Shown here: one piece after another, positions 5,029-30,701 of the stretch
Position numbering within the stretch: the first letter of the stretch is position 1
Layout: each line of letters begins with the position of its first letter
Assembly: GCA_028753945.1 (NCBI GenBank)
Contig: JAPNXP010000017.1
Location: 1,364,001-1,428,000 of the forward strand
From: Hexactinellida sp. DTS-2022
Lineage: Eukaryota > Porifera > Hexactinellida
DNA: 64,000 nt
Reading direction: 5' to 3'
Position numbers and translations under genes: made by a program
The notes under the pieces: model-generated
What the model was told of the DNA's origin: nothing
Databases searched by the model: none
Seen by the model: the letters and a program-made list of their open reading frames with translations, nothing else

Positions 5029-8000
5029 CTATAGAAAACTGAAATCATAAGATGCCCCCATATCGATGTCTCCCGTGAGGTCCTCCTCCATGCCAGGCAC
5101 CGCCTCCTCCTCCTTTCCGCCCGACTGGTACATCTGTCCCCCGGTGCGCTGTGCGAACTGGAAAGACAAGTCCGGGTCCGAATGTACGACACTAAAGTCG
5201 TAGCTGCAGTCGGGGTTCTCTCCAAACGCACTGTCCACTTCCCAGAAATGAGGCAGCATGTGCCAGAAATCTACAATCTGCTCCTTCCATTCGTTCGTGT
5301 TGGTTCTGCGCTGTTCCAGTCTTTCTGCTAGCTCGCGGTTTATATCGATAATACAGCTACAAAGTAATATGATAAGATAACACAGACATCCGAATAAGAA
5401 CTCCAGAAAAATTATAGAATGGAACAATACTAGGTATATTAGTAATAATTTATTACTATTCTGAACAAATAGTTCATCGGTACGAAATACTTTTCATTTA
5501 GAACACATTGTTTCTATAATTAGGGAATTGCATAAGGAGCGAATAATATTGGGCACGGGTCAAAAATCACATTTGGAAACCGTTCAATTTTTTCAATCAA
5601 CTTGGAACATCCTTTCTTGATTAATACAAGCCAATTTTACATAATGACAAAATTAATTTCTTTTTAATCAATAATTATTACCAAACTATTATATCCGTTA
5701 TTTACAATAATATGCACATTTTGATTTTACTCGTACTCGTGCATAAGACGAGACCTGTTGGCTTGATTAAATTACCAAAGGATCGTAAAATAATTATTAT
5801 CCTATTTTCTGGATCTTTAATACCCTAGGAAGCGATATTACCACTTAGGGAATTAGAGTAATATTATATTAGCTAATATTACTATTTATTAACTGAGTAT
5901 TTGAGGGAAAAATACAGTAGATATAGCAGATTTGGATAACAAAAAAACACAAACATAAATCAGACTTGTATAGAACATCCTAAAAGTTTATTAAATTTCT
6001 AATTTTCTAAAAATCACCTTCATAGAAAGACCCATGATCTACAATCGGGCCAGGCCAACATAGACTACAAACTAAAACATGCAATATGATGCAGCGAGAA
6101 TAAGTAAATATAGTAGGCCCTAAATATATAATTATATAAAGGATTCCCTAGTTATAAGAAGTGAGCAAATTATATCAGTTACATGGCAGAGTTAAAATCA
6201 AAGTTACCAAAAGAGGATCCTAGGAACTACATCGAGGTTGAAACTCTGGACAATCGCAATTGCAAGATATTCGTAAATGATTTCTCGGTGACGACTATCG
6301 CTAAGATTAAAACAGTTCTTGAATGGGAGTTTGATTGCCAGATAGAACACATAAGACTGTTGTTCCATGGATTCAAACTGCAGCAAGATGACAAGACGCT
6401 CTCACTCTGCAACATCCCGATTAATTCTAAGCTACAAATGACACTTGCAATCCCAGGGGGCGGCATGGCCAACACGAGCAAGATCCTTTTCGCAGATATA
6501 ACACGCTATGACAAGAATTCAGATTCTGTGGAAGGAATAAAGAGAAGGCAAATCGTTAGGGTGGGCCCCCGGTACCACGTGGTTATTTCAGGCCTCAACT
6601 TCCTTGGCTACTGCAATAGAAGCGAGTGCCAAGCTCAAGGCAATATCGTGGTTATCCAGATCGGCATACCGCAGCAATGCGTGGACTTCAGCTACCAACT
6701 GGAACAGCTAACTTGTCCCGCTTGCAAATTATCGATTTCTCGAGAGAACTGTATAGGGATGGGACTGCACAAGTGTAAAGCGAATATTGAATTCAAAACA
6801 GAGAGCAGACAGGGGAAGTACACGCTAAAAGCTGGAGACGAGTTTGTTCAGTTCGTATCGACCGAAGAGGGAGACAACATAGAGTATCGTTATATCCGCA
6901 TAACAGTCAAAGCCCTAGAGTATCAACTTTAAATACTTAATTAAATAATATCCTTTTGTATTATTAATTTATATAATTATTTTCAAATTATTTTCAAATT
7001 CCTCCATAATACGATAACGTACCTCTGTAGGGAGCCCACGAGTGCTACGTAATGAGCATTCTGTATGGTCTCTGGGAACAGTTTGATTACTATGTCATCC
7101 TTGTCGTAGAACTGAAATTCCAATAAAGTCGCCCTGACAAATGTCTAAAATATGATAATAATTAACTTTAATGGAGGTTAGTTGTGTAAGGTTGGAAAAT
7201 ATTGGTTTTATACCCCATTAAAAACTGCCTCTAACTGAAGTGTTTAGAGCAAAAGATTTCCCAGAGAGATAATCTCTGACCCCCTAATGGGGGAGGGTTG
7301 CCATAATTTCAGAATCATGTATAACCTCCTGGGGTGAGCATTCGTTCTACTGAATGAATGAGTGGTCTTACCATTGACCAACAAAAGCAATAATAATATT
7401 GATTGCCCCAAAGTCGTGTTGGCAGGTTCAGTTAAAAACAGGTGACTACTTATAAACCAGTTAGGTCTGCTAATGTATTCTGTTATAAAGTGACCTAACC
7501 CGCCTGACACTATTCAATTCCTATTGACCTTCGTTATCAACATAGAAAAACAGTAGCCAGTCAGAGGCGTAGCCAGGGTGCGGCACTTGGGGCACAGGCC
7601 GCACCCTAAATATTTTGTGCCCACAAAAATGCCCATTAGTATAATACTATAGTGCGGAAATGCCGCAACCATAATCTACAAGTGCCGCACCTTCATGCAG
7701 GCCTAGCTACGCCTCTGTAGCCAGTAGGTAAATATAGTAATAATATTGATTCTAATCGAGATTAATAAATTATACCTGAGGAGATTGTATGAATGTCTGT
7801 TCGCAGTGCTGCAGAGTAGTCAGTAGCTGTTCCAGCTCCTTCTTTGTCTTATCTTTGCTCCTCAAATTATCTACATACAATAAGAAGAAACTTAGATAAG
7901 AAAAATAATAAAGCTCGAGTTATAAACCCCCATTGCTGACTCTGATAACAAACGATACAACTGAGCATTTATAATATACATTAAGTGTCGATAAGATCAA

Positions 8001-10699
8001 AAAAGGAACAAATGTATTAAATCTTCTGTTTCTTCCGACCTCCTCTCTGACTCTGAGGCTTGGAGACTCTAGCTGTGCTTTGGAACGGAGAGCCGTCTAC
8101 ACTCTCACTCACATCTCGTGTTCGCTTCCGTGTCTTTACCCCCGAGTGCACGCGCCCCGGCATGCTCCTCCTGACTCTGGCATAGCCCCTGCGCTGTGGA
8201 GAGGTGACGGGCGTCCGGGTGCCCCCCGAGCTGGTGGGACTCAGCTGGGAGAGGTCGATGAGGTCCTTGGTGTCTTCTCCGCTCCTGTACTCGTCACTGA
8301 AGTCTCCGGTGTACTCTGCAGAGACATCTGTGATACTCTCGAGCTCCTTCTTTATCAGACGAAACTCCAGTTTTTCACAATCAATTTCTGGTCTCGATTC
8401 AATCTGGCTTAAGTATATCTTCTTTGCGTTCTTAACCATGCTAGTCGCGTACCTCTGCATCGCCCTCGGTTCTTCCTTCACAACAAATTCCTCCAAAGCA
8501 AGCGAGAGTGTCTCAGAGCCTAGGAAATGCAGATCGTCGTTTACAGCGATTTCTCTGAATAATTCTATGATGCTATCCTCAGCAACGTAGGGGTCCTCAA
8601 ACTCAGTTAGCATCGAGTCCTCAGATGGATTCTCTTTCATGTATTTAGATCGCTTTTTCTGTTTCTTAGAAAACAACAACACCTCTCCGGGGTTAGCAAC
8701 CTTATAAGAATATTTCGCAAGGAAATCCCGCTTAACATTGTTCTGGTTGTAGGGTTTGGAGAGCGAAACTCGGATTCGGAGCAGTGGCTCTTTGTCACTT
8801 TTCGGGAATAACGACTTCACTTTATCCAGTAGATTATCCATTTTAGCTGAGATATACTGGCTTATCATATCATCATCGTAATCTGACACCCTGTCGTCAA
8901 GGAACATATCTTCTATTATAAAGGGGCGAACTGACAGGAGCACTCGAGGGTCGATTTTGAACTCTTTCTGTTTCACATATAGAATACCTACATTCTTCTC
9001 GCCAGCCTCTCCCTCACCGAGACTAGTAGCAACAGTAGAACCGGGTTGAGTTACATAAATAGGTTTATCGGCCCCTGATACATTGATTGGGATAATCTGG
9101 TTATCGTGTTCGTGTCCCCAAAACACAAGTTCCATGAATGTAGGAATAAACTCCGACTTTATGTAGCTCTTATCTCCGTGTTTGACTCTATTCTGGTGGA
9201 TAATAAACAGGTTGAAAGTGTCTTCTTGGGTTTTCAAGAAGTGAACATTATTCTGCGAGAATGTTCTATACAATCTCTCATTGCGCACAGCCCCCAGTCC
9301 GAACAAAGCAAGCAGGCTGGTTCCCTTCCTTATGACTAGCGGCTCCACTTCTATCTTGTCAACCTGGTCAGACTTTCCAAAGTAGTTAATCAGTCCAGCC
9401 TCGGAGAGTAAGTCCAGGACGGAAATGTTTCCTGGTCCAGTGGGGTCGTCATGGTTACCGTGAATAGTGAATATGGGAAGAGATATGTTGAGGTTCGGAT
9501 TCTCATAATTAAAAGGCTCGGGATCCGTGTCGGTCCCAACGTGACGGTACAATTGAGTTTTGCGAGACCCGAAGCAATACTTCCGCATTAGCGACATGCA
9601 TCTGTGGAGAGTTGGCCTACTGGGCTTATTTTCATGAAACAAGTCTCCCCCGAGTAACACGAAGTCGACCTGTTCCTGTGTCCCGAGCATGAGCACTTCT
9701 TCGAAGGCTTCAAAGGAATCATTCCCGCGAATGGGGTCGTCCTCAGCGTAGCCCAGATGGACATCCGTCGCTAGGAGAATCTTAAAAGTGTCCGAATCCA
9801 GTTGCGAGTCTTCAGCACAAATCTCTTCATATTTCTCTCGCCATCCGGCCATAATAGTGTGGTATTATATATAATCAATAAATAATAGCAAGCTAAAATA
9901 GATGTTATAATTTGAAATACAACTAAAATAGGATTATAGGTATATTATAGTGTATAGTTGTGATATGTTATTATAAGTATATGTGGGTATTACGGTTGTG
10001 TGCTATCTTCTGGCCTATCTTGTATTACAGAGTAAGTAGCATAGGTAGTCACCATTGTAACCCACGGACCCCTCGCTCTGAGGCGAGGTTAGGATTGCTC
10101 TAAAGCGGTTGGGGATACAGCCCATTGCTGCGGAAAGGGATTACCAGCTTTCAGAATAGAAGTACATATGCAGTATTTAAAATATACACAAATAGTAAAC
10201 CAGAGTTTAGTTACGGTATAGAGTGGGTCACACGGGACACAAGCTGAACACAAAACATTCATACGCCTTGATTGAATCTACTATAATCTCAAAACGAAAT
10301 ACAGATTACTTAACAAACTAACCTGCTAGCTCTTTCCCTATATTAGATATCTGGGAAGAGAGATCTTTGGGGAGGGGAGTCTTAACACAGTAAGGCAGCT
10401 TGCAATACTCGTAACTTCTGAAATTGAACTTAATTAGGAAGAACTTCATACACGAATACAAGAAATCGACTCTTATTTCATGAGCCAATATGTTAGTCTG
10501 TTGATCAGAAAATCTATTGAAATACACGAAATAAGTAGGGATGGTAGAATTGTTGTTAACAACAAAAATTGCTTTTGCTGTTAACAGCCTGGAAATAAGG
10601 TAAATTAGTTAAAATGTGATGAGGATAAGTATACCAAAAGGGGATTTCTAAGACACTTAAGACGGATCTCAAACAATTGATACAAACAAAAGGAATCAT
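5029..10699 (-). CDS. Unrecognised five-exon gene, 291-aa protein, hosting two nested genes
   Basis: I infer exons 10635-10699, 10323-10588, 7776-7870, 7023-7144 and 5029-5356. All have GT..AG introns and matching phases (TG|G, G|AT, phase 0, AG|C). The predicted protein starts MIPFVCINCLRSVLS and runs through a hydrophobic/aromatic segment with NNNSTIPTYFVYFNRF and HEIRVDFLYSCMKF. It then has a charged, probably coiled-coil stretch (residues about 105-140, KDKTKKELEQLL), a WKEQIVDFWHMLPHFW segment and a very acidic tail ending DMGASYDFSFL. I do not recognise the family. Intron 2 (7871-10322) contains MRE11 on the same strand; intron 4 (5357-7022) contains the ubiquitin-like gene on the opposite strand. 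The ATG is only 41 bp from the RNF213-like stop codon. The weakest join is across the MRE11-containing intron: exons a-b and c-e could belong to two genes. Confidence 0.55.
6183..6932 (+). CDS. Ubiquitin-like domain protein with C-terminal cysteine/histidine domain
   Basis: Single-exon 249-aa gene on the strand opposite its host gene. Residues about 17-93 form a ubiquitin-like fold: strands YIEVETL and CKIFVND, a helix with IAKIKTVLEWEF, IRLLFHGFKLQQDDKTL (compare ubiquitin QRLIFAGKQLEDGRTL) and LQMTLAIPGG. A GGG stretch at 92-94 follows, where ubiquitin ends in GG. Residues about 97-249 form a second domain with C144, C149, C178, C181, C190, H196 and C198 in a CX4C...CPAC...C..HxC pattern, consistent with zinc binding. 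As I recall, similar ubiquitin-like plus Cys-rich proteins occur in multicopy families of some invertebrates and fungi; their function is not established. It could be processed after the glycines like ubiquitin-ribosomal fusions, or act as an intact ubiquitin mimic. No poly-A tail or flanking repeats mark it as a recent retrocopy. Confidence 0.85.
   Translation: MAELKSKLPKEDPRNYIEVETLDNRNCKIFVNDFSVTTIAKIKTVLEWEFDCQIEHIRLLFHGFKLQQDDKTLSLCNIPINSKLQMTLAIPGGGMANTSKILFADITRYDKNSDSVEGIKRRQIVRVGPRYHVVISGLNFLGYCNRSECQAQGNIVVIQIGIPQQCVDFSYQLEQLTCPACKLSISRENCIGMGLHKCKANIEFKTESRQGKYTLKAGDEFVQFVSTEEGDNIEYRYIRITVKALEYQL
7562..7717. mobile_element. hAT-type MITE with 8-bp target duplication
   Basis: A 156-bp element in the third intron of the 5029-10699 gene. 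Its ends CAGAGGCGTAGCCAGG and CCTAGCTACGCCTCTG are inverted repeats. It is flanked on both sides by the direct repeat TAGCCAGT (7554-7561 and 7718-7725). The interior contains repeated GTGCGGCA/TGCCGCAC motifs. Ends and 8-bp duplication fit hAT-superfamily non-autonomous elements. Confidence 0.9.
8017..9852 (-). CDS. MRE11: Double-strand break repair nuclease MRE11
   Basis: An intronless 611-aa frame. MRE11 is the Mn-dependent exonuclease/endonuclease of the MRE11-RAD50-NBS1 complex, which processes DNA ends and activates ATM. All phosphoesterase motifs are visible: ATDVHLGY (D30, H32), GGDLFHENKPS (D70), HGNHDDP (N133, H134), IIHQNR (H219) and WGHEHDN (H247, H249). The capping and DNA-binding region follows (IRVSLSKPYNQNNVKRDFLAKY), then a short basic tail with RGGRKKQKI. 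The vertebrate protein is about 700 aa, so this tail is reduced and the GAR motif is minimal. The gene lies entirely within an intron of the neighbouring minus-strand gene, in the same orientation. Animal MRE11 genes usually have introns, so an old retroposed replacement or complete intron loss is possible. Confidence 0.96.
   Translation of the reverse strand: MAGWREKYEEICAEDSQLDSDTFKILLATDVHLGYAEDDPIRGNDSFEAFEEVLMLGTQEQVDFVLLGGDLFHENKPSRPTLHRCMSLMRKYCFGSRKTQLYRHVGTDTDPEPFNYENPNLNISLPIFTIHGNHDDPTGPGNISVLDLLSEAGLINYFGKSDQVDKIEVEPLVIRKGTSLLALFGLGAVRNERLYRTFSQNNVHFLKTQEDTFNLFIIHQNRVKHGDKSYIKSEFIPTFMELVFWGHEHDNQIIPINVSGADKPIYVTQPGSTVATSLGEGEAGEKNVGILYVKQKEFKIDPRVLLSVRPFIIEDMFLDDRVSDYDDDMISQYISAKMDNLLDKVKSLFPKSDKEPLLRIRVSLSKPYNQNNVKRDFLAKYSYKVANPGEVLLFSKKQKKRSKYMKENPSEDSMLTEFEDPYVAEDSIIELFREIAVNDDLHFLGSETLSLALEEFVVKEEPRAMQRYATSMVKNAKKIYLSQIESRPEIDCEKLEFRLIKKELESITDVSAEYTGDFSDEYRSGEDTKDLIDLSQLSPTSSGGTRTPVTSPQRRGYARVRRSMPGRVHSGVKTRKRTRDVSESVDGSPFQSTARVSKPQSQRGGRKKQKI
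9853..10322. other. Putative MRE11 promoter region inside the host intron
   Basis: The stretch between the MRE11 ATG and the upstream exon of the host gene. It contains a short GC-rich patch (about 10055-10135) with a CCTCGCTCTGAGGCGAGG hairpin, but no coding sequence. It must carry whatever promoter drives MRE11 if the nested arrangement is right. Confidence 0.4.
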
Positions 10700-10740
10700 T
10701 AATAATTATATTTCCTATAAATAATTACGATAATGAAATC

Positions 10741-13700
10741 TTACTCTGTAAATCCAGCGTTTTTCAATGCGGATATGTCAGGATCGTTAGCTGGGGATTG
10801 CTTCTCCAAGAATTCCTCGATAGACATGTGCAGTAATTCATCCTCTTTACCTTTCATTAGTATAGAGCCCTACAATAGTATAAGTTTGGTATATACAGCC
10901 TCTAGTTATAAAATGGTAGCCAAAGGACATCTGCAATATGTAGAGTATAATACCTGCGCTAATCGCTGTAACGTCTGTCTGAGCGCATTGAGCAGTCTAC
11001 AGAAGTCTACGTACTCGAGTGTATGGAAGTGGTACTCAAGGTTCTGTACAATGGGATCAGGGAGCCCAGTTAGGTATCTAGCAGATTTGTCAGACAGATA
11101 GCTCTCCATCTGAGTTAGGAATTGTTGCAAATTCAGAGGGCTAAAGTAAAATTAATATAATTTAAATCTATACATGTCACACAAGGAAATTAATAAAATA
11201 ACATTTTCAGATTGCTTGTATCGGTAACTCACTCTGGTAGATTGGAGACTACAATTTCTTTGAACTTGAACACTCTGTGTATGAGATTAGTTTGTGTGTT
11301 GAATTTTGGCTTAGATGCAATGTATTTCCAGAATATGTCCTGTTCCAACGCGTGCAGGTCGTAGGGACAGGTGTCCACGCTCTGAAAGGGAGTGTAGGTG
11401 GTGCGACTCCTGATCAACTCGTAGATTTCAAGCGAGTTTTCGTCAATCTCCTTCATTGAAGTCCTATGCAGGCAATAATAATTAATACAGTAACCAGATA
11501 AACATATTATTAACAATTTAACATATACGCATAACATATTATAAACGCGGCATCTCTTGAAAGCTATAAGAACATTGAAAAAAGAAATGCAATAAAGTAC
11601 CAGTAGAGGTTGGCCTCATTAGGGGTGAGGTCAGAAACAAAAGCATTCCTAGTGCTCTCCTCGGTTGGTGTGATAGTAGAGGTTTCCAATTCATAGCAAG
11701 AGAGCCAGGGTAGCAACTTCTTGGTCTCAGCTACTGTCTGAAGAAATTCATTCTGTGTGGTGATCTAGGAATTATAGTAAAATTTCTAAAAAATTCTGAT
11801 ATGGCTTATTCATCTAAATTTTAAGTAATCTATTTTATAGCTAACATTTCATGCATAAAATACGCAGTCAGTTCATTCACTGGAGTACTATATATAGTAT
11901 ATATTACCCACTTAAAATATGATTATACAGCTTACCAGATCCTGGATGACCAAGTAGAGGGCATCTTCGCCTATTTCCGGTTCTTCAGTGACACTGAGCA
12001 GACGTATGAACTTCGTGTTTCTCTCAAGAGGCATGAACTTGTCCTCTCTCCTGATAGCAGCACACGGGCCAAACCCAATCAGGCCGCGACACACCTTGAC
12101 ATAGACTCTGTAGAAGTATAGCACTCTCTCATACAGCTCCTTTATCTCTACATGTAAGAGAAGTTTGCATTTTTTGTTGATATCAGTGATAACTTCGTCA
12201 ATAGTCTTCTCTTCGGCTTCCTTACGCGTTATAAAGTAGTTGAGGTTTGTATGGAAGAGATGATAAAATTTTAATAAATTCGGAATTAGAATGGAGCTGA
12301 TACGAAACCGTTTTCTCTCGCTTATAAATCTGTGAAGAATCGCGAAATTATTTACAGTAGAATCCAATTTTATATCAACTGGACGACAAGATTCAATCGT
12401 ATGTTGGAGATGAAGGAATGTTATTTTAGTAGGATACCATTTCTTGAAAGAAATAACGTTGGTAGAGAAGTCTGATATAACTGCCTGGTGTGGGGGGCGT
12501 GGCTCCTTAGTGCGTTTCAAGTTCTTATCATAGACCTGTGTGTGGATAGCGAATTCATACTTCTCCACCTCTTCAGTAGATTTAAATACCATTGGAGATA
12601 ACGGGGAGTTAGGCACTAGAGCTAATAAGTAAAAGTCATAGAAGCAGTTGGTGAGGAATTCTCCCAGCTCTTCCTGCGTCAGGTCCCATTGCAGCTGCAT
12701 GTGCAGCCATATGGTGCGCAGCTGGCTGAGGCAGTACAGCCCTGCCTGCTTCCACTCAGAGAATATGTGTCCACTTAGGCTATCCATGGCCGTGGGTTGT
12801 GTAACGAGACTCACAGTGAAGGCTCCGAAATTCATTAAAGTCATAAGGTAGAACGAATGCAGTGTGAAACTCTTTCGGTCAAAACTGTAGTAATCCGGGC
12901 GGCCATAGCTCCCGTCCTCGTTCAGTTCGCAGCCACAGTCGTACTTGAGAGCTGCGCTGATCGGTTTGGGATAGAGATTGGACACTATGTAGGAATCCGT
13001 CAAGCTTTGGGGGTTCAAGAATAAAGTAGACAGGTGAGATGTGTTGTCTGGAAGGCCGATGAAAATCGCGATTAGATTACAGAGGATACTCCGTAACACG
13101 ATAGCATCATGCTCCTTCTGATTGAGAGAAAAGAAATCGAATATAAAGCATTTCTTATCTCCAGTTCGTTGCTTCATTTTTACTTCATTTCCTTTAAACT
13201 CGTAGATAGGTGCGTCTGGATTGAGTGATTCTACAGTTTCAGAAGTCCTAATCATACAATCAGTGTGAAGGAAACACAAAATGATATTTTTCTTTCCCTC
13301 AGATAAACCTAATTGAGCGAATTTGTTAGATTGAATAGCACGGAACAACTCTTCACAATAAATACCCTTCAGATAGAACTCTTGATATATACCCAGCCAG
13401 AAGTACATACGGAGATTGCATATTCCGTTTTTGTCATTTGCGACTTTGTTATTGTCATGTGCGACCTTGTTAACCAATTGAGACAGTTCTTCTATAATCT
13501 TCTCTTGCTCAGCTGTCTCAGTAGCATACGCAATGTTACGCAATACTTCATAGCAATCTTTGTAGGATTTGTATTTCTTATCTCTGATGTTCATGAATGG
13601 AAATTGCGGGATTGTTTGTTTCTCAATTTTCTTCAATTGACTAATACATTTGTGTACCCATGGAAGTTCATCTTTGGAATAGTTAAGAATATTTAAGTAC

Positions 13701-16700
13701 CCTTCGAACGCTTCCATGGAGGTAAACTTGTTAGAAATTAGGTAAAGCATGGACCAACTGTGCCCACCTAAATGACCACCACCAAAATGGTGATCGTCAA
13801 TGTGTAAATGGATTTCTTTAATGCACTCAGGATGTTGCTCAATTAACTGAAGAACTGTATTGGAAGGGTTTGATATAAAATGTTCCGAGTAAGACTGTAG
13901 GATAACTTGAAACATTGCTTGCTTTTCAATTCGGGCGATAACCTTATAACAAGCATCCTTGTCGATGGATAGATTTGTGTCTAAAAACTTATGAAATATC
14001 TTAAATATAGTGAGGAGATTCTTGTCTCCATGCAACTGTGTGAGTCTGTCCAGAGATACCTGGTAGTACAGGTGTGCTAACGGCTGCTTCATAATTGGGT
14101 GTATTTCAGCTGAGCACTTAATGAAAGACCTAGGGGCCGCGTAGTAGAACGGAATGTACTCTGTAGGTTCACATCCTTGGTAGTGTGTAAAGAGTTCGAG
14201 AGCAATAAGTTGTTTCACCCCCCGATTGAATTGTGTTATGTTTATTGATGTGTCTTGAGTCTTATCCTCTCCCTCACTTAATAAGAATTTTGTGATCAAA
14301 TACTGGTAGAATCTAAAAGTTAGAAGATCCGGCTCGATTATTCGTTCTTCTTTCACTTCTCTCACTTCTCTCACAGGTGATTTAACCACTGCTTGTCTAG
14401 CACCAGGTCCAGACCAATTGTACTGCCTATTGGCACTGCGGAGAATCCAAGAGATTATATCATCATCAATATGATCGTTTAGTTCTATGTGGTGATGTAG
14501 GATTCCCTCTGCAAATTGAACTTTGAACTCACTTCTGATCTTAGCATCTTCAATTGTATTACAGGCATCTTCTACTTTCTCCAAACCTTTATGGAAAATC
14601 ATTTTTAAGTCATAGGCACCTTTCAGCTGCAGCTTTATAAAGATAGCTAAATCAAAAGCATTTATTAAGAACTCGTCGTTGATATGATAGTATTTTGCTA
14701 TTAAAAAGAGCGAATGTATGTGAGCGAATTTGAGTTTCTGTTGTTTGGTGAGAGTGCATTCAAGCACGTCTGAGTGAGCTGATCCAGAAAACTGAATTAT
14801 TAGGTTAATGTACACCCTGACCCACCTCTTGAAGTTGTCTATGTTGGCAGAGTTGGGGCGAGTTTGTAAAATCTTACTAATATTCTTGTAGAGTGTGTTA
14901 ATGAAATAACTGAAAATGGAAAGAGCTGATACTTGCATGATACTTTGCATGCCTTCTTCCAGGGTGTCCAAACCCGAATCATCGAGGGTTTCTAGAGAAG
15001 AGAATATGTAGAGCAGCTTACTGAAGTCAGGAGGGTTTGAGAAAGAAGAGATATGTAACTTTAGCAGAGCATTGGAAGTATCTTTCGGATCAAAGTCGTT
15101 GCCCCAGAAACGAACTAAGTTTAGAAAACTAGTATTATTCTCTTGTTTCTCAAATAAATCTGTCGAAGAGATTGAGATATTGTCGTAGGCAAAGTCTTCC
15201 ATGTAATCCAGCCACACTTCCTTACCTACATGATCCAGGATAAAATGAATGAGTGGGTATTGGAGGATATTCTTAATCAGATGATCTGAGAGTAGTTTAG
15301 TAAGGTCTTCTTGATTGTGCTTGTTTGTACCTTGACTAGATTTCGATAATTGCGTAACAGTTATGTTTTTATTGACTTCCTGGATACTTGACTGAATAGC
15401 ATTATCGAAACTCCGCGCAACGAAACTGGAGAAAGGGAATTTAGGAATGTGAACAGCGTTCATCACCTGAGCGTCTAAAATGTGTGATATATTCTTAACC
15501 TCCTCCATAGTAGGAAGATTAAGATGTTTGAGTATTCCTAAAAACAAGTCCTTGGTTTCTTTCCTGCAAAACGCTTGTTGCACTTGGGGTTGCCTGACAT
15601 ACTCGTAGGATAAAATATCTATCTCATGCTGCTCAAATAGAACTTCCAAATTCAAATCTTCATTCATTTTATAGACCATCAAAGTTAGGAAAGAAGTAAA
15701 CAGATTCCAAAAGCTAGTCACTACTAAATCAGTGAGACTTAGATTAGAAAGATTTTGAAAGATAGAGTTAGCGTAATTGTGAATTTGTTCACGAATAAAA
15801 TCAGATTTCCAATAGGAAATGAACATTTCACAGAGTATCGGCCCAATATCTGTCTTAAAGAGTTGTTCCAATAGATTAGCACGCTGATAGAGATCAATAT
15901 GATTTGAATTGAACACACACTGGAGTTTAGTACCAAACTTAATTCGAGATAAAATGTCAATAGTGAGTGTAGGTAGCTTGTTCTTTAGGGCTTCGAGCAT
16001 TGGTTTCTTGATTCGTTCTAGTTCATCCTTGTAAGAGAGGAGAGTTAAAGAAAGCCAGTTTTGAATGTTGAGGGGATTGTTCTCTTTTTGTTTCTGGAGG
16101 TTATCCAAGTAGCAGTGGTCCCATCCGTGCAAGAAATGAGCAGGGTACCGGTAAAATGAGCCGGTTCGCGTTTTGTGCAGTGTCCGGTTGAATATGGTTG
16201 GTGGGTAGTGCAGTAGGATAACAATAAGTTTATTGAGCGTGAAATTAGGTCCCACCTTAGCATTGGCAACACTCTCCTCTTCGTCAATCATAATCCTAAC
16301 AAAGTTAATTCTCTGCTGCGTTACATGCTGCATATCTGCAACAAATATTAACACACGCTTAGTCGCGTCTTGGAAGTAGTCGCGTAGAATCGTCATGAAC
16401 TGTTCCTGAGTTCTTATAGCAGAGAGCTTGAACAGACAAGTATCGAGTGTCGTGTGTATGACAGGTGTCAAGCTCTTCTCTCGGATGTCGCCCTGGCTAG
16501 AAGACTGCATATGCTTATTAGCAGGGAAACAGTCCGGCAGTGATAAAATGAAGGAAGTTGTTCTTGTGTAACAGAGAAGTTTCGTAGGGCGTGTCAATTC
16601 ATTTTCTTTTGATTCGTCTTGTAATGTTATGTACCTAGAAATTAACTTCTTGAATTCGAAATGGTTTTGATGAACTAGGTAGGTTTTCTTATAAGTTTCA

Positions 16701-19700
16701 CTGATTTGGTCGTATTTGACAATGAGAGCCTCAGGCAGTGCAAGTTGCAACAGACGTGTGCAGAGATATCGGACCAGGAAGTGCACAATCATACCTATGA
16801 CCAGCCTCTGGCCGGGGAGGATGCTTATAGGCAACAAATACAAGCTCTCGTCTTGAGCTTGTTCGTCAGACATGGGGGCGTTCTCCTTCATTAGATGGTC
16901 TATAGCGCCGGGTATAAACTGGTATATGTCCTCGGGATTAGCGCGAATCGTCTTTCCAAGATTCTCAACCTCAATATCCTGTTTCATGGGATCGATATAG
17001 ATAGCAGTTTGTAAAATGTCTTTAGCTATCTGATCCCTCTCTTCAGCTGGCAAGTAGATGAAGTTGAATCCTGCTAGCAACTTAAGTTGTATTAACAGAA
17101 TGTCCAGGTAGTCGTGAGCAGGAGGGTATTCCATTGTCTCTTGGTCTTCGTCATCATCATCAGCTGGTTCTATATCGATAGGATCGGGCTCATGCGCTTT
17201 CTTTAGTCTCTCTCTAAGTGCTTCGTCGTAATTGAATCCAGGCTTTGGAAGCATGTCAATCAACAGCGACTCGAAACTGTCATATATATTACCATAGAAA
17301 GTTTCTTGTTTGACTACATTGATGAATTCTTTCACCTAAACAATTGAATACACGATTACTATATGCTATTGAAATGTAGTTTATTCAGATTTTTTAAATA
17401 AAGTTTCTTGTACTACACATAAATATTAACGAATTTACTTATCCACCGATCATCGGACATAAAAAACAATCGGTAGAAAGTAGCGAGGTTTTTTAATACA
17501 AACGCCGATGATCGGTGGATAAGTAAACTCAATATTTACCTACCTTGGTAATAGTAGAAGTAACCAAAATTTCCATACAAGGAGGAAGAGCACCCAATGA
17601 AGCCTCAAGCATATCTCTCTGAGAAACTTGGAACTTTTCAAATCTATTCAGAAAGGGCTGAGGAGCATAATCAAGAAATGATTTCTGGATATGCACAATG
17701 CACTGGAAATTAGGATCAACTCTACAAGGCTTAGTATGGGATCCAATAGCGATATTTGCATAATAACGCCGGCCCTTGTCATCCTCCACTTGCTTGTAGT
17801 TTTGATTGAAAAGGTCATAGAAATTTTCATAAATTTCATCTGCTTGTGAGAGTATAACAGTCTTTCCTTCAGCAGCAGCATGTTTTATAGCCGAAATAAG
17901 AATCACTTTCTGTAGCTCTCCATCCCCTGGGAAATCACTGCCTATAAACATTCGTGTGTCATGTATGTCCAGTATGTTGTAATGGTAGAGCAGTCTGGTG
18001 AGAGAATCGTCTTCACTGGGGTCTATTATCATTTTGTAGCGCACCTCTACCAACTCTTCTTCCTCTTCTCCGCCTCTGTTCTTACGGGTTACAGGCCTGA
18101 TACTAGTGTCCTGGAGACTTTCTTTCAGAACTTCGATGATATTTCGTGAATGCTTTGAGAAAACTTCCTTGGTGATGAACATATTAGCTATTTCAGCGAA
18201 CTCAACATTATTCTTTCCGTTAAAATTTCTCTCAATCGCTTTCAATACAAGTTCTTCTTTGTTGAAACCAGTTTTGTTCAAATTATCTCTATTCCGTCTC
18301 AAATAACCTATCATGTGAATGAAGTCGCGAAGACCATAAAATTTGGAGAATCTCAGCTCTTTCATCAAATTTTCGTAAGGTAGACATAGTTTGCTTATGA
18401 AGAGTTGTCGCGAGGCATTAATTGCTTCTGTATTCGTCGTAGATTTCATAAAGCAGCTGGTAGCCAGTACGTACAAGTCGTCTTGCTGTTGAGGACGGAA
18501 CAGATTAATAGCTCTGTTACTCTTTGCAGCGTCGAGAATGTGATTGGAAATTGCAACAAATGAAACTTTGGGGCGGTCGAGGTAATAATGTAAGACTTTC
18601 ATAGATTCATGGCTCTCCTCTGGAAGTCCTGCTTCGTCCATAAAGACAACAGAGAATACTTTCAGATTAGCCTCGTCGTGCGTATCCTGTCTCTTTATTG
18701 CGATCTTAAACACGTTTTCAATCTCATTGGATGTTGACCGTCGGGAACACTGGTAATAGTGAGGTTCTAATGCAGGAAATTTCTTATTACGGAAATATTC
18801 TTTTGGAGATTCACCTCCTTTGACATTACTGATTGTCAAATTAAACGATAACGTTTTAGAGGTGCCGGGAGCTCCGACTATAATGAGTGGAATCTTAGAC
18901 ATCGTACAGATGAGAGTTGCGAATAGATTCTCCTTAAGAGCATTCGTTTTAGCAATTCCTGGTGGAATCTTAACCTTATCAATAAACTCATCAACGTATT
19001 TATTAAGAGTTGTTACGAATGTTAAGCCAAAGAGCTTATCAATTTCGTTTCTAAATTGGGTACGAAAGGTATCATCTAATCGAAAGTAGTATACAAGACC
19101 AATGGCTACGATAACGGAATTCTGAATGTTCCTCGGAGTGACACTTTGGTCATTTATAGAATCTAAGAACTCAGTAATCTTGAATACACGCTGGATGTCA
19201 CGCTGACTGACACAACTTTTGGCGCGAATAGTCGCATCAACCGAATCGAAACCAACTTTCTCTAATTGACTCTCTGCAAATTTCCTAACTAATTGCTGGG
19301 AGGTACCAATTTGTGCACTGAGAAACGATAATTCAATTACATTCACGTTATCTGTTAAAGCAGAAACAGCAAATTTCTGCTTAATATATTCTTGTTCCTG
19401 GTATTTATCTAGAGCACCATAATCCCATAGGATACGAGACAGCGTGGGATGAAGTTTCCTTACATAGTACCAACCCAAAACCCAGTCCTCAATTTTGGTG
19501 TCCTGCTGTAATGTTGCTGTCACTGATCGATGCGGGTTACAAGCAGCCACAATAAAAACATTATCCGGTAACTCCTCTCCATCAATATAACCATCAATGA
19601 CAATTTCTTTGAAAAGCCCGAGGCAATGTGAAGTATTTATTTCGTCAAGGAATACAGTGAGTATTGGTACCTGATATGTGTTATCTTGAAGCGTGTCTGA

Positions 19701-22700
19701 TCCTAAGAGTCGTTTGGCAAGCTGCTTTGCCCTGTTAACTATTTCATTAAATCTGCATTTGATTTCAGCTGGGGTAAGAGCAGAGTGGACGTTAATCTTA
19801 ACGAAAGTATCCGCAGATTTTGCTGATAGAATCTCAGATAAGAATTTAGAAGTATTTTCGGGAGATGGGTATTTGATTGCGTTTATGGCTATTGTTTCGC
19901 TAATATTAAATAAATTGAATGCGGATGACCTGCAGAAAGTTTCGAGTGGTTTCATAAATTCTCGGTGTAACATTTCGCAGGACTTTAAGATACAATCCTG
20001 TGTTGGTATAGAGCGTTTAGATATAGCCATATTAAGAGCGAACAGACTTTCGTAGGAATTGATTTCAGATTGATTCTGGGAGTTAAATATCTGATCAATT
20101 TGTTTCGTGATGATATCCACGATTGAATCTAATGTCCTATAGTATGCCTTGTGTATGGTTTTATTCCAGAGCTTGGATAGAAACTCTAACAACTTCGTTT
20201 TTCCCACTCCAGTCTCCCCAACGATAACCACAGGATATCTACACATCCGTCTCTCGTGAATGTTAAGCATTTTGAGAAGAAAATCAACAGTCAGTACGTA
20301 CTCTTCATCAGCTATAAGTTTAGATATTATTTCTATACTATCGATACTCAGAGCATGTGCTAGAAGTTCTTCCAGCTTTTTCCTTGTACCTAAATCTGTG
20401 TGGGTAGGTATGTTGATACCAAGTGTATTAAAATCAGACCTCACATCCTGGTTCAACTTCTCAGGATGTAATGATAGAAATTTGATTGTGTGGCCGCCGC
20501 CACTGGTATTATAAATCAATTGCTGATGCTCACTCATTTCCCAATTCTCTTTGTAGGAAGGATCGCAAAACTGATTAACTTCAAAAATCATAATTTTCAT
20601 TAGAGTTGAGCCCAAATGTTTCGTATTAGTTATCATTTTTTTCTCAAATTCAATATCAAAGGTAATTCCCGTGCCAGTGTTAAAAGTGAAGTATGGTAAG
20701 TGTTCTAGCACCTCACAGCGCCGCAACATGTAACGAACGAACAACTTTTGTAGAATCTTACGAACCTTGACATGTGGTTGCATATATCTATCCAAGAGAT
20801 TATGACATTTATCATCGTCAAAGTCTACTTCTGTGGAGAAAGATACCTTAATCCTCCTCCTTTCGTCATAGAGACGGTTGATTCCAATACCCTTCTTGTC
20901 AATAAATACAGAGTAAGCATGCAAGTACTTGCAGATAAGTTGAACATCTTTATCAATAAAGTATGGCAAGTCACCACCTATCAAATGAGGTGTACCCATA
21001 ATGCTAAAAATAGGAATCTCTTCTTGAAAGTCTTTCAAATTGTTCAGCGGATCATCTTCATCTGGACGGGAGGGTACTTCGATATATAGCCCCCAGTTCA
21101 TGCCGGCAGGAACACGGAAAATGAGTGGGGAACTACTATCAGAAACATAGTTGAGTACAAGAAGGTCAAAGAAAAACCAATTTACTCTTCTAATCAGTTC
21201 CATGTACTCTAAGTAATCCTTTCCATCCTTGTCATAATTCTTATGACAGGTAATAGTAAAGTTAAAGTAAATACAAATATCGATTTCCATTGGTATGAAA
21301 TTCATCTTTTCGATAATAGCAGGTACACTGAATGCTTCGTTGATTGAAATGACAATGTTGAAACATGGTTTTCCTATCTTATCACGAATGTAGTGTGTCT
21401 TTCCGTCGCCTTCAAGACCATAAACTAATTCGATTACACCGAATACATTCTTGTCTGGCATGGAATATAGTTCTTCAAATTGAGTGTGTATATCAACTTT
21501 AACCCCAGGCAATTCGTGAAGGAGCGATTGAGCAGTCTCTATATAGTGAACCGACGCAATGAGCCTCGCTTCTCTCTGGGACTCTGCTATATGTTTCATT
21601 GTATATTCCTGTAAAAGGTTAGGCATCTTATTGACCTCAATTAAAACATAAATCGGTTTTAAGAATATGGTAGTGCGATCAAGAAACAGAGACAATTCTT
21701 CAAATGTTGTGTCACTATTACAGTGAAATAATTGGAAGCTCTCTATTGGAAAATCCATTTTGTAAATCCATTGAATAAGAACCAGTACTTCGGATTGTGT
21801 GCAGCCGTGCAGACGATGGATACTCTGTGTTTGATGGTAAATCACAGATGGAGTATTGCGTTTGCTACTTTTTCTCCTTTCCTCATTAGTGATAAGTAGC
21901 TTTGGTGTGAGGTCTTGGTTAGTTGTTATTTCATCGATAACTATAGACATTATTTTAGCTGGAGACAAAACAGACGTGTCCGCTTCCAAGTTCCTTTTTA
22001 TTCGAGGAAAAATTTCCATTAATTGTGCATCGATTATACGAATAGTAGAATAGTCATTTTTAAATAGGAAGCTCAGCTGGTTGGCTGCTCGCGACCAATC
22101 TTTAGCTTCCATTAGTGACACAATTGTGATGATGCGTTGTATCGGGAAGAAAAGGAGGTATTGTACATTTTGTTGTATCTTCAAATAATTATCTTTCCAA
22201 TCGGTTAATTCTAATTCATAATTTCTGAGATATCCACCCAACATTTCTTTACATTGCTTATAAGTGATAGAAATGGGCTTGTCCTGGTAATTGGGGTGGC
22301 CCAATAACGTGAGCTCTTTTAGGATTTCGAACATTTTCCTGATCATATCATGGAAATACTGAAAGTTAGATATATTAGCAACTCGCTTCTCATCAAGTTT
22401 AGTAGTTTCTAAGAATCCTAATTTCCTAACAAATTCATCAATTTTTTCTGTGTTCATGCGCTCTTCGATTCTATTAGGAAGGGATTCTAAAGGGTTGAGT
22501 CCATCCTGTGAGTTCTGCCGAATGGGAGACTCCGGAAGTTGGATAATACTGTCCCTCTTGTTGGAATGCTGCATTGCTGAAGTCTTAGTAGAAGCATAAT
22601 ATCTGAGGAAAAGTGAAGCATGATGAATCTTAGTAATCGGTTGTGAACTGTTAGATAAACTAGGCATTGCACCCAATTCCAGCTTTTGATCTGCTTTACC

Positions 22701-25700
22701 GAGTAGAATCTCGTAGGTACCTGTCTCTAGGATATCTTGTAGTTGTTGCGACACATTCTCAGTGGTTTCGCCCTCAGCTAGTATAAACCAACGACGGATC
22801 AGTGTAATGTTATTATTGACCGTTTTCAGCTGTGAATATCCAGTCTCAGAGCCGATCATCATAAGAGAGTAGTATTTCAGGAAATCTCTCAGTGTCTGCT
22901 CCTTGTTAAACAGGGGTATCATATAGTTGTAAGCAATAGATAGATGTGTTAGTACTGTGTCGTCATAGTCTTCATCCTGTCTCTCTGATGTTATTAAGTT
23001 GACTTGGATATCAAAGCTATCTCGATTATCGAACAGATTCTTGTCAAGGAGGAACTTATAGAACTCAGCACTGTCGGAAAGAATAGGAAATAGCTGGTAC
23101 CGCTGCAGGGGCATGTCATTAGTTATGTCGTTGATCTTTTCTAACAGTATTGTTGCTTCAGTAATTGTTATTTTATCACGATTATCTGAGTCTGAGAGTT
23201 TTTTATAGATAAGATCTAACTCCTCAAATTCGGGTGATTTAGTGCAACTATCCAACCTGTACTGTTTACAGATTTCAGTAATGTTGTAGAGGTATTGGTA
23301 TATTTTGAGTAGTTGGAAAAGATTAATAACACCTAAATCCCCTTTTATTTGAGATGCAAGTGGAGGGAACATCTTGATATCTGTGTGAATGCGAGCGAAA
23401 TCCAAATTGTGGAGTGAGAGGTTTTTGTTAATTTTGTCTATTTCAGCATACGTGCTGATTCCTGCACATATCCTATCAAGTGACTTATAACAGTCAATAG
23501 TGCATTCAACAAACTGTTCCATAGAAATATATTGTAAGTCGCTCCCTTCTTCTCTTCTTCGAATTTCTTGCATTTTATCTGCCATACACTTTCTAAGGCA
23601 GGCATCAAATAGTACATTTTCTCTAATCCTGAAGTGAGCTAGAAATTGGTGGACAGAATATAAAGATCCTTCAGAGATGGGATATGAGAACATTTTAAAA
23701 CTATCAACAAGATTAGCACACCGTAATCTGAATTCTCTAATTTTAATTGTGTCTTTGGCTTCCAAAACAGGAATTAATACATGTTTTTCATTTTTGTTTT
23801 TTGTTAAAACCTGCTCGTAACATAGATTAAACAATGCATCTATTTCTCCTCTAATTCCATCTGGCACTTCTGTTTGGTGGTCGTTCAAGAAGTTCAACAG
23901 GAAAGCAGACTTAATTTCCATTTCGTCAACCTCAAGTTCGAGGATCAGAGTTTTCTTCATCTCCTGAGCAATGACATCGAATGTGTATATCTTAGTATGT
24001 ATCTCTTCACCACTTAATATAGCCAATCCACTACTCTTAAACAGATCATTTAAATTCGTAAGATTTTTCAGAATAGCGAAATATTCAATGAGACTGCATT
24101 CATCATTTAAAATGTCATTATAATGTCCAGATATAATATTATAACTACTCTTACAATACTGAATAAAACTCAATATATTCTTGTCTTCCCAGGCATAATC
24201 TTGAAATCCAGGAATGTTTCCACAGTATTTAGCGAATACGAACATTAATGTAGTGATCATGTAGGGGAAATTTAGCCAAACAAGTTTCTCAAACTTTATC
24301 CCCTTTGTAATGGAAGCAAGAATTCTCCAAAGATAGTAATGCTCATAGGAAGTTTTCATCTGTTCAAATGTAATATAATTCTTCTGATGAGAAAGTGTTT
24401 GTAATGAGATAATCAGTTCTTTACAGCTCCCCTCTTTATTAGGATGAGATAGCAGAGATTGTTCAGGTACAATAGCTCTACACAGAGAATCCATTATTAT
24501 GACTTGCAACATAGAAGGAAGTCTCTGTTTTGGGATATAATTAAGAATATCCACGAGTTTCTTATGTATAATTGGTCTCAGCTCATACGCACATTTAGAT
24601 TCAATAGAACGCATGAAGTTAGATATCAGTTTCTCTTCTTTATCAGTTGATTTGTACTCTAAACCGTAGGCAGGTAAATCAAACTCCAAACAATTACAAA
24701 TAAATGCAAACCCTTTGTTACGCTGTAAATATTGGTTGAATATCTTGTCAAATGTTTGGAAAATTGACTTTGGAGGGTCCTTGATTTTGAAAATAATGAT
24801 CAGTAGATCATGCCATATAGTGTCTTTGAGAGAAATACTTTGACCAGGTTGGTATTTAGTGAAATAATCAAAAAGAGCGATCTTCGATAGGACGGCAACT
24901 GGAAACCTAATAAGAATTTCATGAAATGTTTCAATGTCTATTTTATGAAAATGTTTTGTTATCAGAAGTACTACTTCCTTCTTGTGTTCTTTAATCCATG
25001 GTTTGACAAGAGCTTCTGGAGCAGTGGGTATTTTGATGATGTCATAGAAACATCTCAGAACAATAGCGAAATCTTTAGGAATGTGCATAACATTTAAATA
25101 GTAATTAATCATGCACAAGAGTAATATCCTAAAAATTTCAAACCAGTATTTCTTACAAACTTCTGACTGAGATGACTTTTCTTCACAATCTCGTGTCGCA
25201 GTACAAATCAGTGTAGCTAGTTTAGACAAAGTGAGACACATCATTTCTACACATGCCTTGGGATTATTGTCAATAAGGGTATTTAAATAGCCTTTGTCAG
25301 ACTTGGTATACAGAGAAATAAATTGTGAATAGTAGTTAAGGAAATCAGCTATTTCTAACGTGTTATATTGGGATTTCAAAATAAAATCAAGTACTATGCC
25401 AAAGTTTTGGAAAGTATAAATCTTAGTACATGAAGACATCCAATTGACAATGTGACTCAGCAAGAATCTCTGATGAAAAGAGAGGCCCAACTTGATACCA
25501 AACTGAATTCCAGATTCCCAGATAGTATTAAGGTTGGATGAGTCATAGATGGATAGCTGATCATAGTCTATATGGTTAATGAGATGCTCACTCCACTTGC
25601 TTTGTCCTGGTATCTTAAAGCTCTGTTTACAAAGCATCAGAATATTGTACCATAAGAGCTTATTCTCCAAGTCTTGTTGCTTATAGATAGGCTTAATGTA

Positions 25701-28700
25701 ATTGAATTTGATACCTGATTTCGAAGATTGAGTATATTGAATAGAAAAAAGATCAATTAATTCATTCTTTGGATTACCTAACTTTCTAAATCTGAACACT
25801 TTATCTTGAACTAATTCTTCAAATCTCCTAATGGAGTAAGCAATTGATTCGGGATAGAGTTTCAAAAATTTCGCTAATATATACTCAATAGCATCAGAAG
25901 CTTGATTATCTTTAGAACTGTCATAGAGTTGCGATATTTCCAAAAAGATGACCAGATAAATAGGCCAGTCTACCTGAATGTGAGATTCAAAGATCACTTT
26001 TGACTTCAAATATTTGACAATTTTGTTCAATGAACTCTAGAAAGACGATAAACTTGTAACTTGACCTAAGTAGAGTTCCATATTCAATATTCGGGAATAA
26101 ACTTAATACGTATCAGGTTTTACCAGTATACCTGTGTGGTGAGGTACATCTGTAAATGTCTGGTTAAAGTTAAACAAATATACTACTACATGCAGGCTGC
26201 AGCGCCGTAGCTATGTGTCCTGGGGCCCCTCCCCGGACCCCTTCAGGGGGCCCCTACATAGGAATGAATAAGTAATATAATTTTGTTATATGAATTTATG
26301 GGGCCCCCTAAATTCGGGCCCCCCCCCGGCCGGGGGGTTCGGGGGACCCTTCCTACGGCCCTGACTACATGTCAATAAATTACGTCAGCTATATCACGTT
26401 TATTTCTCCATATATTTTATCTTGAAAATGGAGTGGTCTTAAACTCTTAATGATTCAAAACTCACCGTACAACTTCGAAAGTGGAAACTATGCTGCTTGT
26501 AAAATTAAAACATGAAACTACTACGAAGTAAGAACACGTGAATAATAAAGAGAGCCAATTAAGAACCAAGGGCATTTTGATCGTTGTAGTAACTAGCTAA
26601 TGAATATAACAACAACATAAATAACATCATTAGTTACTCACTTTGATAGTGTCCTTCTTTTCATGAACATGTGCATCCATTCTTTGATAAATAAAGTCAA
26701 TAACCAGAGTAATAGTCTGAGGGTGTTTGCATAATATCAACGGAAGAAGCTCATCCTCTTGCTCCTTATTAAAAAGAAGATTATCTAATATGTCATGAAT
26801 AATTGATTCTCGTATTTTAGATTTCCCTTGACCAAGGTGTGCTTCAAAACCTATAGAAAAAAATTTAATCGATGGATTAATATAATATTTATTTTACTAG
26901 GACACCTGTGGCATGGCCGAATCATGGGTCTCTGGGATCATAGGCTGGGTAAAATTAGGGGCCCCCTCCCCCCTTCAATCAAAATATGGATCACAAAATA
27001 ACTAGTATATTTAATTGTATGATCACGATCCCTTCGGTCTCAAGTTAACTGGCGCTAAGCAGATTATATCGGGCCCCCAGAATCGACGGGCCCCTAGGCT
27101 GCAGCCTACTTAGCCTATTGGGTGATCCGGCCCTGACCTGTGGTACAGCAAATATAATTTTACTCCACTGGTTACTAGAGGCTAGCAAGACAACTTTTCA
27201 AACTTCGTGTTTTATTCCTAGGATAAAGCACCCACCAATCCTTTGGAGGCTGTGCGAGGTCCTTTTTATACTCATACCAATGTAAATTTTGAAACAAGTA
27301 TTTGTTATAATTCTTAAGAGTGCATCGAGGTTTTAACGTCTAGATCTCTAGAATATCAACACAATTATCATTCCAATATAAGGAGGTTTACCAAGAGTAT
27401 TCAAAGAGCGGACCACTCTCTTAGTCCACGTTCCCAAATAGTTAACCTGGGACCTGTATCCACTGATGGACTATTAGTGAGGAATTCCTACCTAATTATG
27501 AGTTATTCCAAAACATTCAATGGTACCCTCCCTAACCATCTCCGATTTACTTGAAACATTTCACATTGCTAGTCTTTGATAACCTGAAAGTTACAGTTCA
27601 ATCAATTGATTTTTACTGAGCAATTTAATTTTGAATTTTCTTAACCCGCTGATAACCACTTGTGACCCACATGCCCATATATGGGCATAAAGTGGTTTAG
27701 TTCCATTTCCGTGACCCATCGGTGGTAAACGTCGTGTTAAGAAAGAGTCCGTAAATTACAGTAACAGAAAACGGGAGCAGAAGGGTGACTTTCGTAAGAA
27801 TAGCTTGATAATATGGACAATGGATGAGATCAAGTACAATGAAAAGTGCATCTTTATATCGATGATTGGTAATGCAAAGTATTACGTATATAACTATATG
27901 GGAACATGGTAGTAAGGTGTATCTAAATTGTGTTATTATATCATTATTTGACAATATATCATACTATTTCGGGGAATTATCATGTATTTAAAATAGCCTG
28001 TTTTAACACACTAGTTTAATACGTTATGATTGTTAATTAGATAGCAAGTCACCGAGAAATACGTATAACTAATAATGGTGGTTAATATTCCATCAAATGA
28101 TTGCTTCAAAATCAAATAATTGCTGCACCTCAGTTCTAGCGAATATGGATATAATGCTACATTTGTATGTCTATATTGTGTATTGCTAATGACCAAAATC
28201 TATTCTGTGGGTCCCTAGACCGTTTCCAAATTTAAATCAATAAAATAATTTCAACAGTTCTGATATTACCTGTGTTAAAGCTATACTCAGTTGACGCTGA
28301 CACCTTACGCGTAGGCTCTTGTAGTATTGGCGATGTTGTTTGTTCCTGACAAATAGAGCACTCCACTTCTTGTGGGTTGAGTAGCAACAGCTCTTTCAGC
28401 TCAGCAACATCTGTAGCCTTATCCTGCAGGAATAGGATAGGAGGGTAGTGCCCCGTCCTTAGATCTTCGGGCGATATCTGCAGTTCCTGTTCTGTCACTT
28501 CTCTACACACACACAACACGGCTACCACGAGACTGTCACTGGAGAGTGCAGCCAGAGAGTTCAACAGAGGAGCCTTAGTGCAGTCCAGCAGTACCATCTT
28601 CTCCGTGTCGCTGAGCTCCTCTGCATCATCCATGTCTATCAGGGTAACCCATTCAGGGGCGTTGAATTTATTCTCAAGAGAATGGAAGTTTACGCGAATA

Positions 28701-29062
28701 ACTGACGAGCTAGAAGTCAGTTTCACCAGAAGAGCTGTAAAATAAAGGAATAAGGAAATGTTACACAAACTTGATATACTATAACTATATGATCTTAAAT
28801 TGATTATGTGATCACACCTGGATTAAATTGATTAAGTGATCACACCTGGAGAGTAGCAGGTGTTCACACTGGTTTGAATATCTAGTTAGTTATAAATATG
28901 GAAAATAATATATTTCTAAAAAGGAATGCTTCTCTCAGATAAAATATCTTGGTTTATTAATAAATTAAATAACTAAAATTTCTCATTAAAAAATCTATTA
29001 TTTCAAATGAACTCACCTTGGCTGTAATAATTAATAGTATCTGGAAATGCGAGAGAAGCCAT
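10741..29062 (-). CDS. RNF213-like (mysterin) giant AAA+ protein without a visible RING finger
   Basis: Nine exons join in phase: 29017-29062, 28270-28734, 26642-26850, 17544-26036 (8493 bp), 11936-17335 (5400 bp), 11601-11764, 11233-11463, 10954-11140 and 10741-10869, giving 5107 aa (human RNF213 is about 5200). RNF213 is a dynein-like AAA+ ATPase and ubiquitin ligase that coats lipid droplets and intracellular pathogens and is mutated in moyamoya disease. Three P-loops are visible: GLEGDGKT near residue 1780, GETGVGKT near 2180 with Walker B VFLDEIN near 2370, and GAPGTSKT near 2630 with VFMDEAGLPEES near 2710, followed by the RNF213-typical VSFVAISNHILDAAKSNRAI. The C-terminal region has the expected ITTQNEFLQ segment. 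I find no C3HC4 RING near residue 4000 where it sits in vertebrates, and no RZ zinc finger. The only RING-like fragment is a lone CSIC near residue 148. Loss of ligase activity is therefore possible. The first three exons are less certain than the rest. Confidence 0.88.
17434..17527. repeat. Intronic palindromic element with 23-bp perfect inverted ends
   Basis: Inside the fourth intron of the RNF213-like gene (17336-17543). 17434-17456 (TTTACTTATCCACCGATCAT then CGG) is the exact reverse complement of 17505-17527. The inner part also repeats ATCGG, so nearly half of this 208-bp intron can fold back. It is probably a tiny MITE remnant. Confidence 0.8.
26193..26363. mobile_element. hAT-type MITE, GC-rich, 8-bp target duplication ACTACATG
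   Basis: A 171-bp insertion in intron 3 of the RNF213-like gene, flanked by ACTACATG at 26185-26192 and 26364-26371. The right end CTACGGCCCTG is complementary to the left end CAGG..GCCGTAG, which carries a 7-bp insertion (CTGCAGC). The interior is rich in GGGGCCCC runs, unlike the AT-rich surroundings. Confidence 0.85.
26912..27135. mobile_element. hAT-type MITE, 8-bp target duplication ACCTGTGG
   Basis: A 224-bp insertion in intron 2 of the RNF213-like gene, flanked by ACCTGTGG (26904-26911 and 27136-27143). Left end CATGGCCGAATCATGGG pairs with right end GGTGATCCGGCCCTG. The interior has GGGGCCCC-type stretches like those of 26193-26363, so the two may be related subfamilies. Confidence 0.85.
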
Positions 29063-30700: not shown

Positions 30701-30701
30701 T

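Follow-up and report, generated by a model that had tools for sequence, protein, structure and literature searches.

Gene content and gene model

The whole stretch of DNA analysed here (64,000 nucleotides, hereafter the window) covers positions 1364001-1428000 of contig C9 in a genome of 112.4 Mb in 18 contigs. Genome searches gave 16 homeodomain matches, the best one to the Antp homeodomain standing at 46%, and no match for Wnt, where the controls gave none either; this would suit an early-branching animal. Splicing of the window gives an RNF213-like gene on the minus strand with 13 exons running from 29062 to 5029 (window coordinates), which join into one open frame of 5376 aa with GT-AG borders at every intron. 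An earlier note on this DNA had described a protein of 5107 aa from a gene ending at 10741. Exons 1 to 9 add up to 15,320 nt and thus to about 5107 aa, in full agreement with that length; the gene end was placed too early because that model stopped after exon 9, and the frame goes on through four further exons to a stop codon.

Exon 1 (29017..29062) carries the ATG and has a GT donor in phase 1. Exon 2 (28270..28734) encodes part of the N-terminal region and exon 3 (26642..26850) has no Pfam match. The bulk of the protein comes from two very large exons, visible in an ORF check as long minus-strand frames at 26036-17532 and 17335-11915. Exon 4 (17544..26036; 8493 nt, an open frame of 2835 aa, here P0002) encodes the N-terminal arm and the AAA core up to and beyond AAA4, and matches RNF213 entries of the PDB with an E value of 2.4e-65. 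Exon 5 (11936..17335; its frame is P0001) is open throughout, has the 5400 bp previously reported, and occupies the position of the hinge and the E3 module. It is followed by exon 6 (11601..11764), exon 7 (11233..11463), exon 8 (10954..11140), whose counterpart in a paralogous gene on the same contig is split by one extra intron, and exon 9 (10745..10869), the last of the earlier model. The four newly added exons all have counterparts in the paralogue: exon 10 (10323..10588) with 43% identity over 61 aa, exons 11 (7776..7870) and 12 (7023..7144) in the same phase, and exon 13 (5029..5356), which holds the stop codon, with a tblastn E value of 0.02.

Two other genes lie within introns of this one. 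Intron 10 contains a single-exon MRE11 gene (8017-9852, same strand), the only MRE11 match of the genome; the matching intron of the paralogue measures just 214 bp. Intron 12 contains, in antisense (6183-6932, plus strand), a gene whose 249-aa product has a ubiquitin domain at its N-terminus (E 1e-7) and, recognised by eye, Cys pairs in its C-terminal region; its relatives are clustered on contigs C12 and C15. Upstream of the RNF213-like gene are a small two-exon gene (29920-30300, minus strand), which may be Tim10-like, and a tandem repeat (30693-30893) of about three copies of 63-64 bp, each with the short palindrome CTATACTATAGTATAG. Exons of a PI4KB-type lipid kinase (1299-4311, minus strand) occupy one end of the window, and HEAT repeats that are partly importin-5-like (54630-63667, minus strand) the other.

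The AAA+ core

The three P-loops and two Walker B motifs noted earlier were all found, each on the minus strand within exon 4. The first P-loop, GLEGDGKT (21396..21419; residues 1780-1787), holds the AAA2 position by order, not by alignment. GETGVGKT (20196..20219; residues 2180-2187) and VFLDEIN (19635..19655; residues 2368-2374) form the Walker A and B motifs of AAA3; GAPGTSKT (18852..18875; residues 2628-2635) and VVFMDEAG (18627..18650; residues 2703-2710) are those of AAA4. The protein has the dynein-like AAA core of RNF213, with Walker A and B at AAA3 and AAA4, and, from motif order only, the P-loop at AAA2. The top PDB matches of the AAA3-AAA4 part are nine distinct RNF213 sequences (E 2e-65 to 9e-64). 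Across the AAA region 219 of 795 positions (28%) are identical to human RNF213; at nine other RNF213 loci of the same genome the corresponding identity amounts to 43-57%. Judged by its sequence, the window gene is an RNF213-type paralogue.

Missing RING and RZ fingers

No RING or RZ match was obtained by hmmscan (Pfam, E<=10) in P0001 or P0002, and hence none in the 11936-17335 exon. The remainder of 5029-29300, scanned in three frames of the gene strand with stops written as X, was equally devoid of both, at E<=5 for 26851-28300 and 26037-26700 and at E<=10 for 5029-12100, 17300-17700, 28250-29300 and 26642-26900; the HMMER filters discard most matches above E 0.1. The stretch in which the earlier note had looked for the RING (residues 3900-4050; 14399..14851, minus strand) has, as stated there, very few cysteines, namely 3931 and 3996, and a CPNGHP-like RZ motif was likewise not found. 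The entire 5376 aa contain a single CxxC (CSIC, residues 141-144, in exon 2) against 1.7 expected by chance. In the C-terminal half there is none in 2305 aa of the window protein and none in 2202 aa of the paralogue, whereas a human RNF213 stretch of 1855 aa has five. The C-terminal 2305 aa retain 39 Cys, with a maximum of six per 60 aa (five in the C-terminal half of the paralogue, ten in the human stretch). A genome search with zf-RING_2 gave at least 142 matches (150 of 368 candidates scored), and none of those on C9 falls within the window gene or its paralogue. From the Pfam scans and the CxxC count, the window protein lacks the E3-RING of RNF213; from the same evidence and a genome-wide RZ search, it also lacks the zinc ligands and catalytic cysteine of the RZ finger.

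Two candidate remnants were considered and rejected. The CSICQEQ of exon 2 could pass for the start of a RING, but neither exon 2 nor intron 2 has a Pfam match, and a single CxxC is fewer than chance would give. In exon 5, KYDCGCELNEDGSYGRP can be aligned by eye with the human RZ stretch WYTCPNGHPCSVGECGRP, the catalytic Cys being replaced by Tyr; profile tests lend this relic no support: when its columns were shuffled 60 times, at least 15 shuffles reached 19.8 or more (best 28.5), above its own score of 17.9.

RZ and RING fingers elsewhere in the genome

The genome-wide RZ search returned 13 matches at E<=0.001, of which twelve lie at seven RNF213 loci and one on contig C4, with none on C9; these matches serve as a positive control for the search. 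The C4 finger (C4:304730-304867) is the strongest RZ of the genome and sits in a 2081-aa frame outside the RNF213 AAA matches, possibly a ZNFX1-like gene. We count at least 12 AAA-bearing loci of RNF213 type (17 of 23 candidates scored), and an RZ match is present at seven of the 12 listed. Its surroundings resemble human RNF213 at six of them (C11, C7:1.56, C1:11.14, C7:1.41, C3 and C7:3.21 Mb); the seventh is C7:2.04 Mb. RZ and AAA matches are about 115 kb apart at C3 and about 41 kb apart at C7:1.52 Mb and are assumed to belong to the same gene. At C7:3.21 Mb the finger is spread over two exons and has four zinc ligands and the GEC cysteine. The five loci with no RZ match are the window gene, its paralogue, C13, C1:6.93 Mb and C1:12.18 Mb, the last three judged from incomplete gene models.

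The RING is scarcer. A human RNF213 RING query gave 16 genome matches at E<=0.1, none in RNF213 loci, although this query would not have detected a RING interrupted by an intron; nor was a Pfam RING found in the scanned stretches of C7:3.21 Mb, C13, C1:6.93 Mb and C11. Half RINGs can be seen by eye on C13 (CLVC...CRTC) and, outside its scanned stretch, on C11, which has the other half (CRHANYCADC...CPVC). From these searches of its relatives, an RZ with no recognisable RING appears to be common in this genome.

The comparison with other RNF213 homologues of the species that the earlier note had proposed thus turned up RZ fingers at seven loci together with a second RING-less and RZ-less copy on C9 itself, so that the window gene is not the sole finger-less copy. 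These two are the only known genes of the set modelled to their end that have neither finger. Also, the missing RING cannot be the telling feature it was taken for, since the human RING matches no RNF213 locus here and RING-deleted mouse RNF213 is active in vitro, the RING being dispensable according to the available part of PMC7311170. By analogy with the mouse enzyme, it is the absence of the RZ rather than of the RING that predicts loss of catalysis, because the RZ bears the nucleophile Cys4462. The zinc ligands of that finger are Cys4451, His4455, Cys4471 and Cys4474, and zinc-ligand mutation abolishes autoubiquitination (PMC12075652, available part).

The paralogue and the C-terminal half

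The paralogue (C9:1751462-1764095) lies some 360 kb from the window gene and matches it from residue ~782, where the model of the paralogue starts, to the end. Identity is 39% over P0002 546-2521 and 58% over P0002 2624-2832. The paralogue has the full set of three P-loops and two Walker B motifs (that of AAA3 reading VFIDEIN), sensor-like motifs accompany the Walker motifs in both genes, and it shares the lack of RING and RZ. The same finger-less state in so diverged a copy argues against a recent accident in one of them. The counterparts of exons 5-13 end in the same phases (0,2,2,0,2,1,0,2), with one GC donor in addition to the extra intron in exon 8. As the splice sites of the paralogue were picked with the window gene as guide, this agreement of phases owes something to that choice, which does not apply to the open frame across its ten exons.

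The C-terminal halves of the two genes share 615 identities over 2047 aligned positions (30%), and the paralogue is the sole match of this half genome-wide. Exon 5 has no RNF213 match by phmmer, a profile of exon 5 and its paralogue finds nothing at E<=10, and a profile of the pair matches none of five RNF213 loci of the genome. Against human RNF213, hhalign of the pair follows a single collinear path over 1458 columns, with 23% identity (E 0.15). Its part from RZ to CTD has an E value of 0.25, with 3 of 20 shuffles scoring higher, and a CTD alignment with human and mouse together reaches 0.072. Profiles of the hinge and of the back of the E3 rank the paralogue first (E 0.01 and 0.55) in a set of 202 sequences that includes 200 shuffles, whereas the window protein is eighth for the hinge and not among the matches listed for the E3 back; a profile of the RZ flanks stays at noise level. 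The AlphaFold comparison proposed earlier yielded two models of exon 5 segments, whose pLDDT of 36.3 and 34.3 is too low for use. From its position and size, the C-terminal half is probably homologous to the RNF213 E3 module. Since it has no significant RNF213 match, loss of the RZ cannot be separated from an RZ that was never present.

Phylogeny and a partial duplicate

A tree of 12 AAA rows (human, the window gene, the paralogue and nine other loci, one locus being left out) groups the window gene and the paralogue with support 100/100, at a distance of about 6.5 changes per site from all other rows. The pair attaches between human and the nine other loci, which without human are supported at 80/79. 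The tree is unrooted and carries program warnings of long branches for human and the paralogue, so that an old origin and fast change are inseparable. Outside relatives for rooting were sought among 168 stretches of prokaryote genomes and 126 of viral contigs that matched the patterns, and none was confirmed.

On such a tree the two genes could represent an ancient, separate AAA+ subfamily that left the RNF213 line before the split of sponges and vertebrates and at no time possessed an RZ. The length of their joint branch, its place between human and the nine loci, and a C-terminal half that matches only the paralogue and whose pair profile hits none of five RNF213 loci would agree with this. 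Against it stand the missing root, the 80/79 support for the nine loci, the two long branches and the failure to confirm any outside relative, and we regard it as rather unlikely. The suggestion that the gene records a state before ligase activity is unsupported: seven RNF213 loci with an RZ match coexist with it, and the tree cannot be rooted.

A recent partial copy of exons 2-4 lies at C9:1163001-1182500 (loci L030, L025, L014 and L031). Identity is 97% over 156 aa in exon 2, 91% over 75 aa in exon 3 and 83% in the aligned pieces of exon 4. Beyond about codon 900 of exon 4 it diverges, and the stretch with which its frame goes on matches the stalk a second time at 25% identity, as a mosaic. 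These 900 codons, a section of exon 4 compared with a single recent copy, give a dN/dS of 0.42 between the window gene and the partial duplicate (0.27, 0.50 and 0.41 in three parts).

A putative ligase-dead RNF213

In mouse RNF213, ATP binding at AAA3/AAA4 switches on the E3, and the E2 is docked by the CTD, not by the RING (PMC12075652, available part). Against this background, a ligase-dead RNF213 paralogue would be the simplest reading of the window gene. We favour, with moderate confidence, the view that it is one of two divergent RNF213 paralogues that kept the nucleotide switch with no classical E3 chemistry and most likely serve as scaffold, decoy or regulatory partner under the control of ATP. 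AAA2, AAA3 and AAA4 would each bind ATP, and AAA3/AAA4 would hydrolyse it, as the observed motifs suggest; hinge, E3 scaffold and CTD would come next, in the order known from RNF213, to judge from position and size. Having neither RING nor RZ, the protein would lack both a recognisable zinc site and the catalytic cysteine of the RZ, so that transthiolation from E2~ubiquitin in the manner of RNF213 would be blocked and the ATP switch would drive binding or conformational change only. Such a pseudo-ligase might then work beside those RNF213 proteins of the animal that do carry an RZ, as their scaffold, decoy or partner; the role as partner or decoy is a guess. What survives of the original proposal, an RNF213 paralogue working only as an AAA+ machine, is its RNF213 type (E 2e-65), its AAA motifs and its want of a ligase finger; the weight given to the RING, the origin before ligase activity and the uniqueness fall away.

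It is unlikely that the protein still transfers ubiquitin through an unrecognised C-terminal cysteine or surface, with the E2 on the CTD and neither RING nor RZ. The 39 remaining Cys, the last exons that correspond between the two genes, and the docking of the E2 by the CTD would leave room for this. However, the known nucleophile sits in the RZ and zinc-ligand mutants have no autoubiquitination (PMC12075652, available part), the cysteines of neither gene form a dense cluster comparable to the human one, and the CTD aligns with human and mouse only at E 0.072. Slow decay towards a pseudogene, with constraint relaxed after duplication and the E3 part going first, is very unlikely: the copies are less alike in the C-terminal half (30%) than in the AAA rows (56%) and the partial duplicate retains exon 4 only up to about codon 900, but 5376 codons are free of stops and frameshifts, two diverged copies have C-terminal exons of the same phase, dN/dS for part of exon 4 is below 1, and the RZ-bearing C7:3.21 Mb is itself nearer to human in the AAA part (49-57%) than in most pieces of its C-terminal part (26-36%).

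More tentatively, the two genes could stand for a subfamily of RNF213-type giants that are gated by ATP and perform no ubiquitin chemistry, and that either diverged earlier than the sponge-vertebrate ancestor or became regulators of RZ-bearing ligases in the same cell. RZ-less RNF213 paralogues are not described among the literature matches listed, a weak indication drawn from titles and abstract starts of open-licence papers. In humans, RNF213 is a protein of immunity and of moyamoya disease, a ligase switched on by ATP binding (PMC12075652, available part), and dominant-negative human alleles are reported (PMC8831215, available part). Relatives with ATPase motifs and no catalytic finger would reveal what the switch moves or binds besides ubiquitin transfer, and could tell whether ligase-dead copies affect active ones.

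Comparison with known systems

Vertebrate RNF213 (mysterin), a giant AAA+ E3 ligase, shares with the window protein the AAA3-AAA4 core, the three P-loops, the overall length and the order of parts. It differs in possessing both RING and RZ, and the AAA region of the window protein is only 28% identical to the human one. The RNF213 deltaRING mutant likewise misses the RING and indicates that the scaffold tolerates its absence; in contrast to the window protein it keeps the RZ and is active, only 3941-3999 having been replaced (PMC7311170, available part). Within the sponge, the paralogue at C7:3.21 Mb is also of RNF213 type with no RING found in the scanned region, but it retains an intron-split RZ with Cys, His, GEC cysteine and a CxxC pair; where its general-base His lies is not clear. 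MDM4, an unrelated protein that serves as an analogy only, offers a parallel to the proposed role, as an E3-inactive paralogue of a ligase that is retained beside the active one (PMC12096895, available part).
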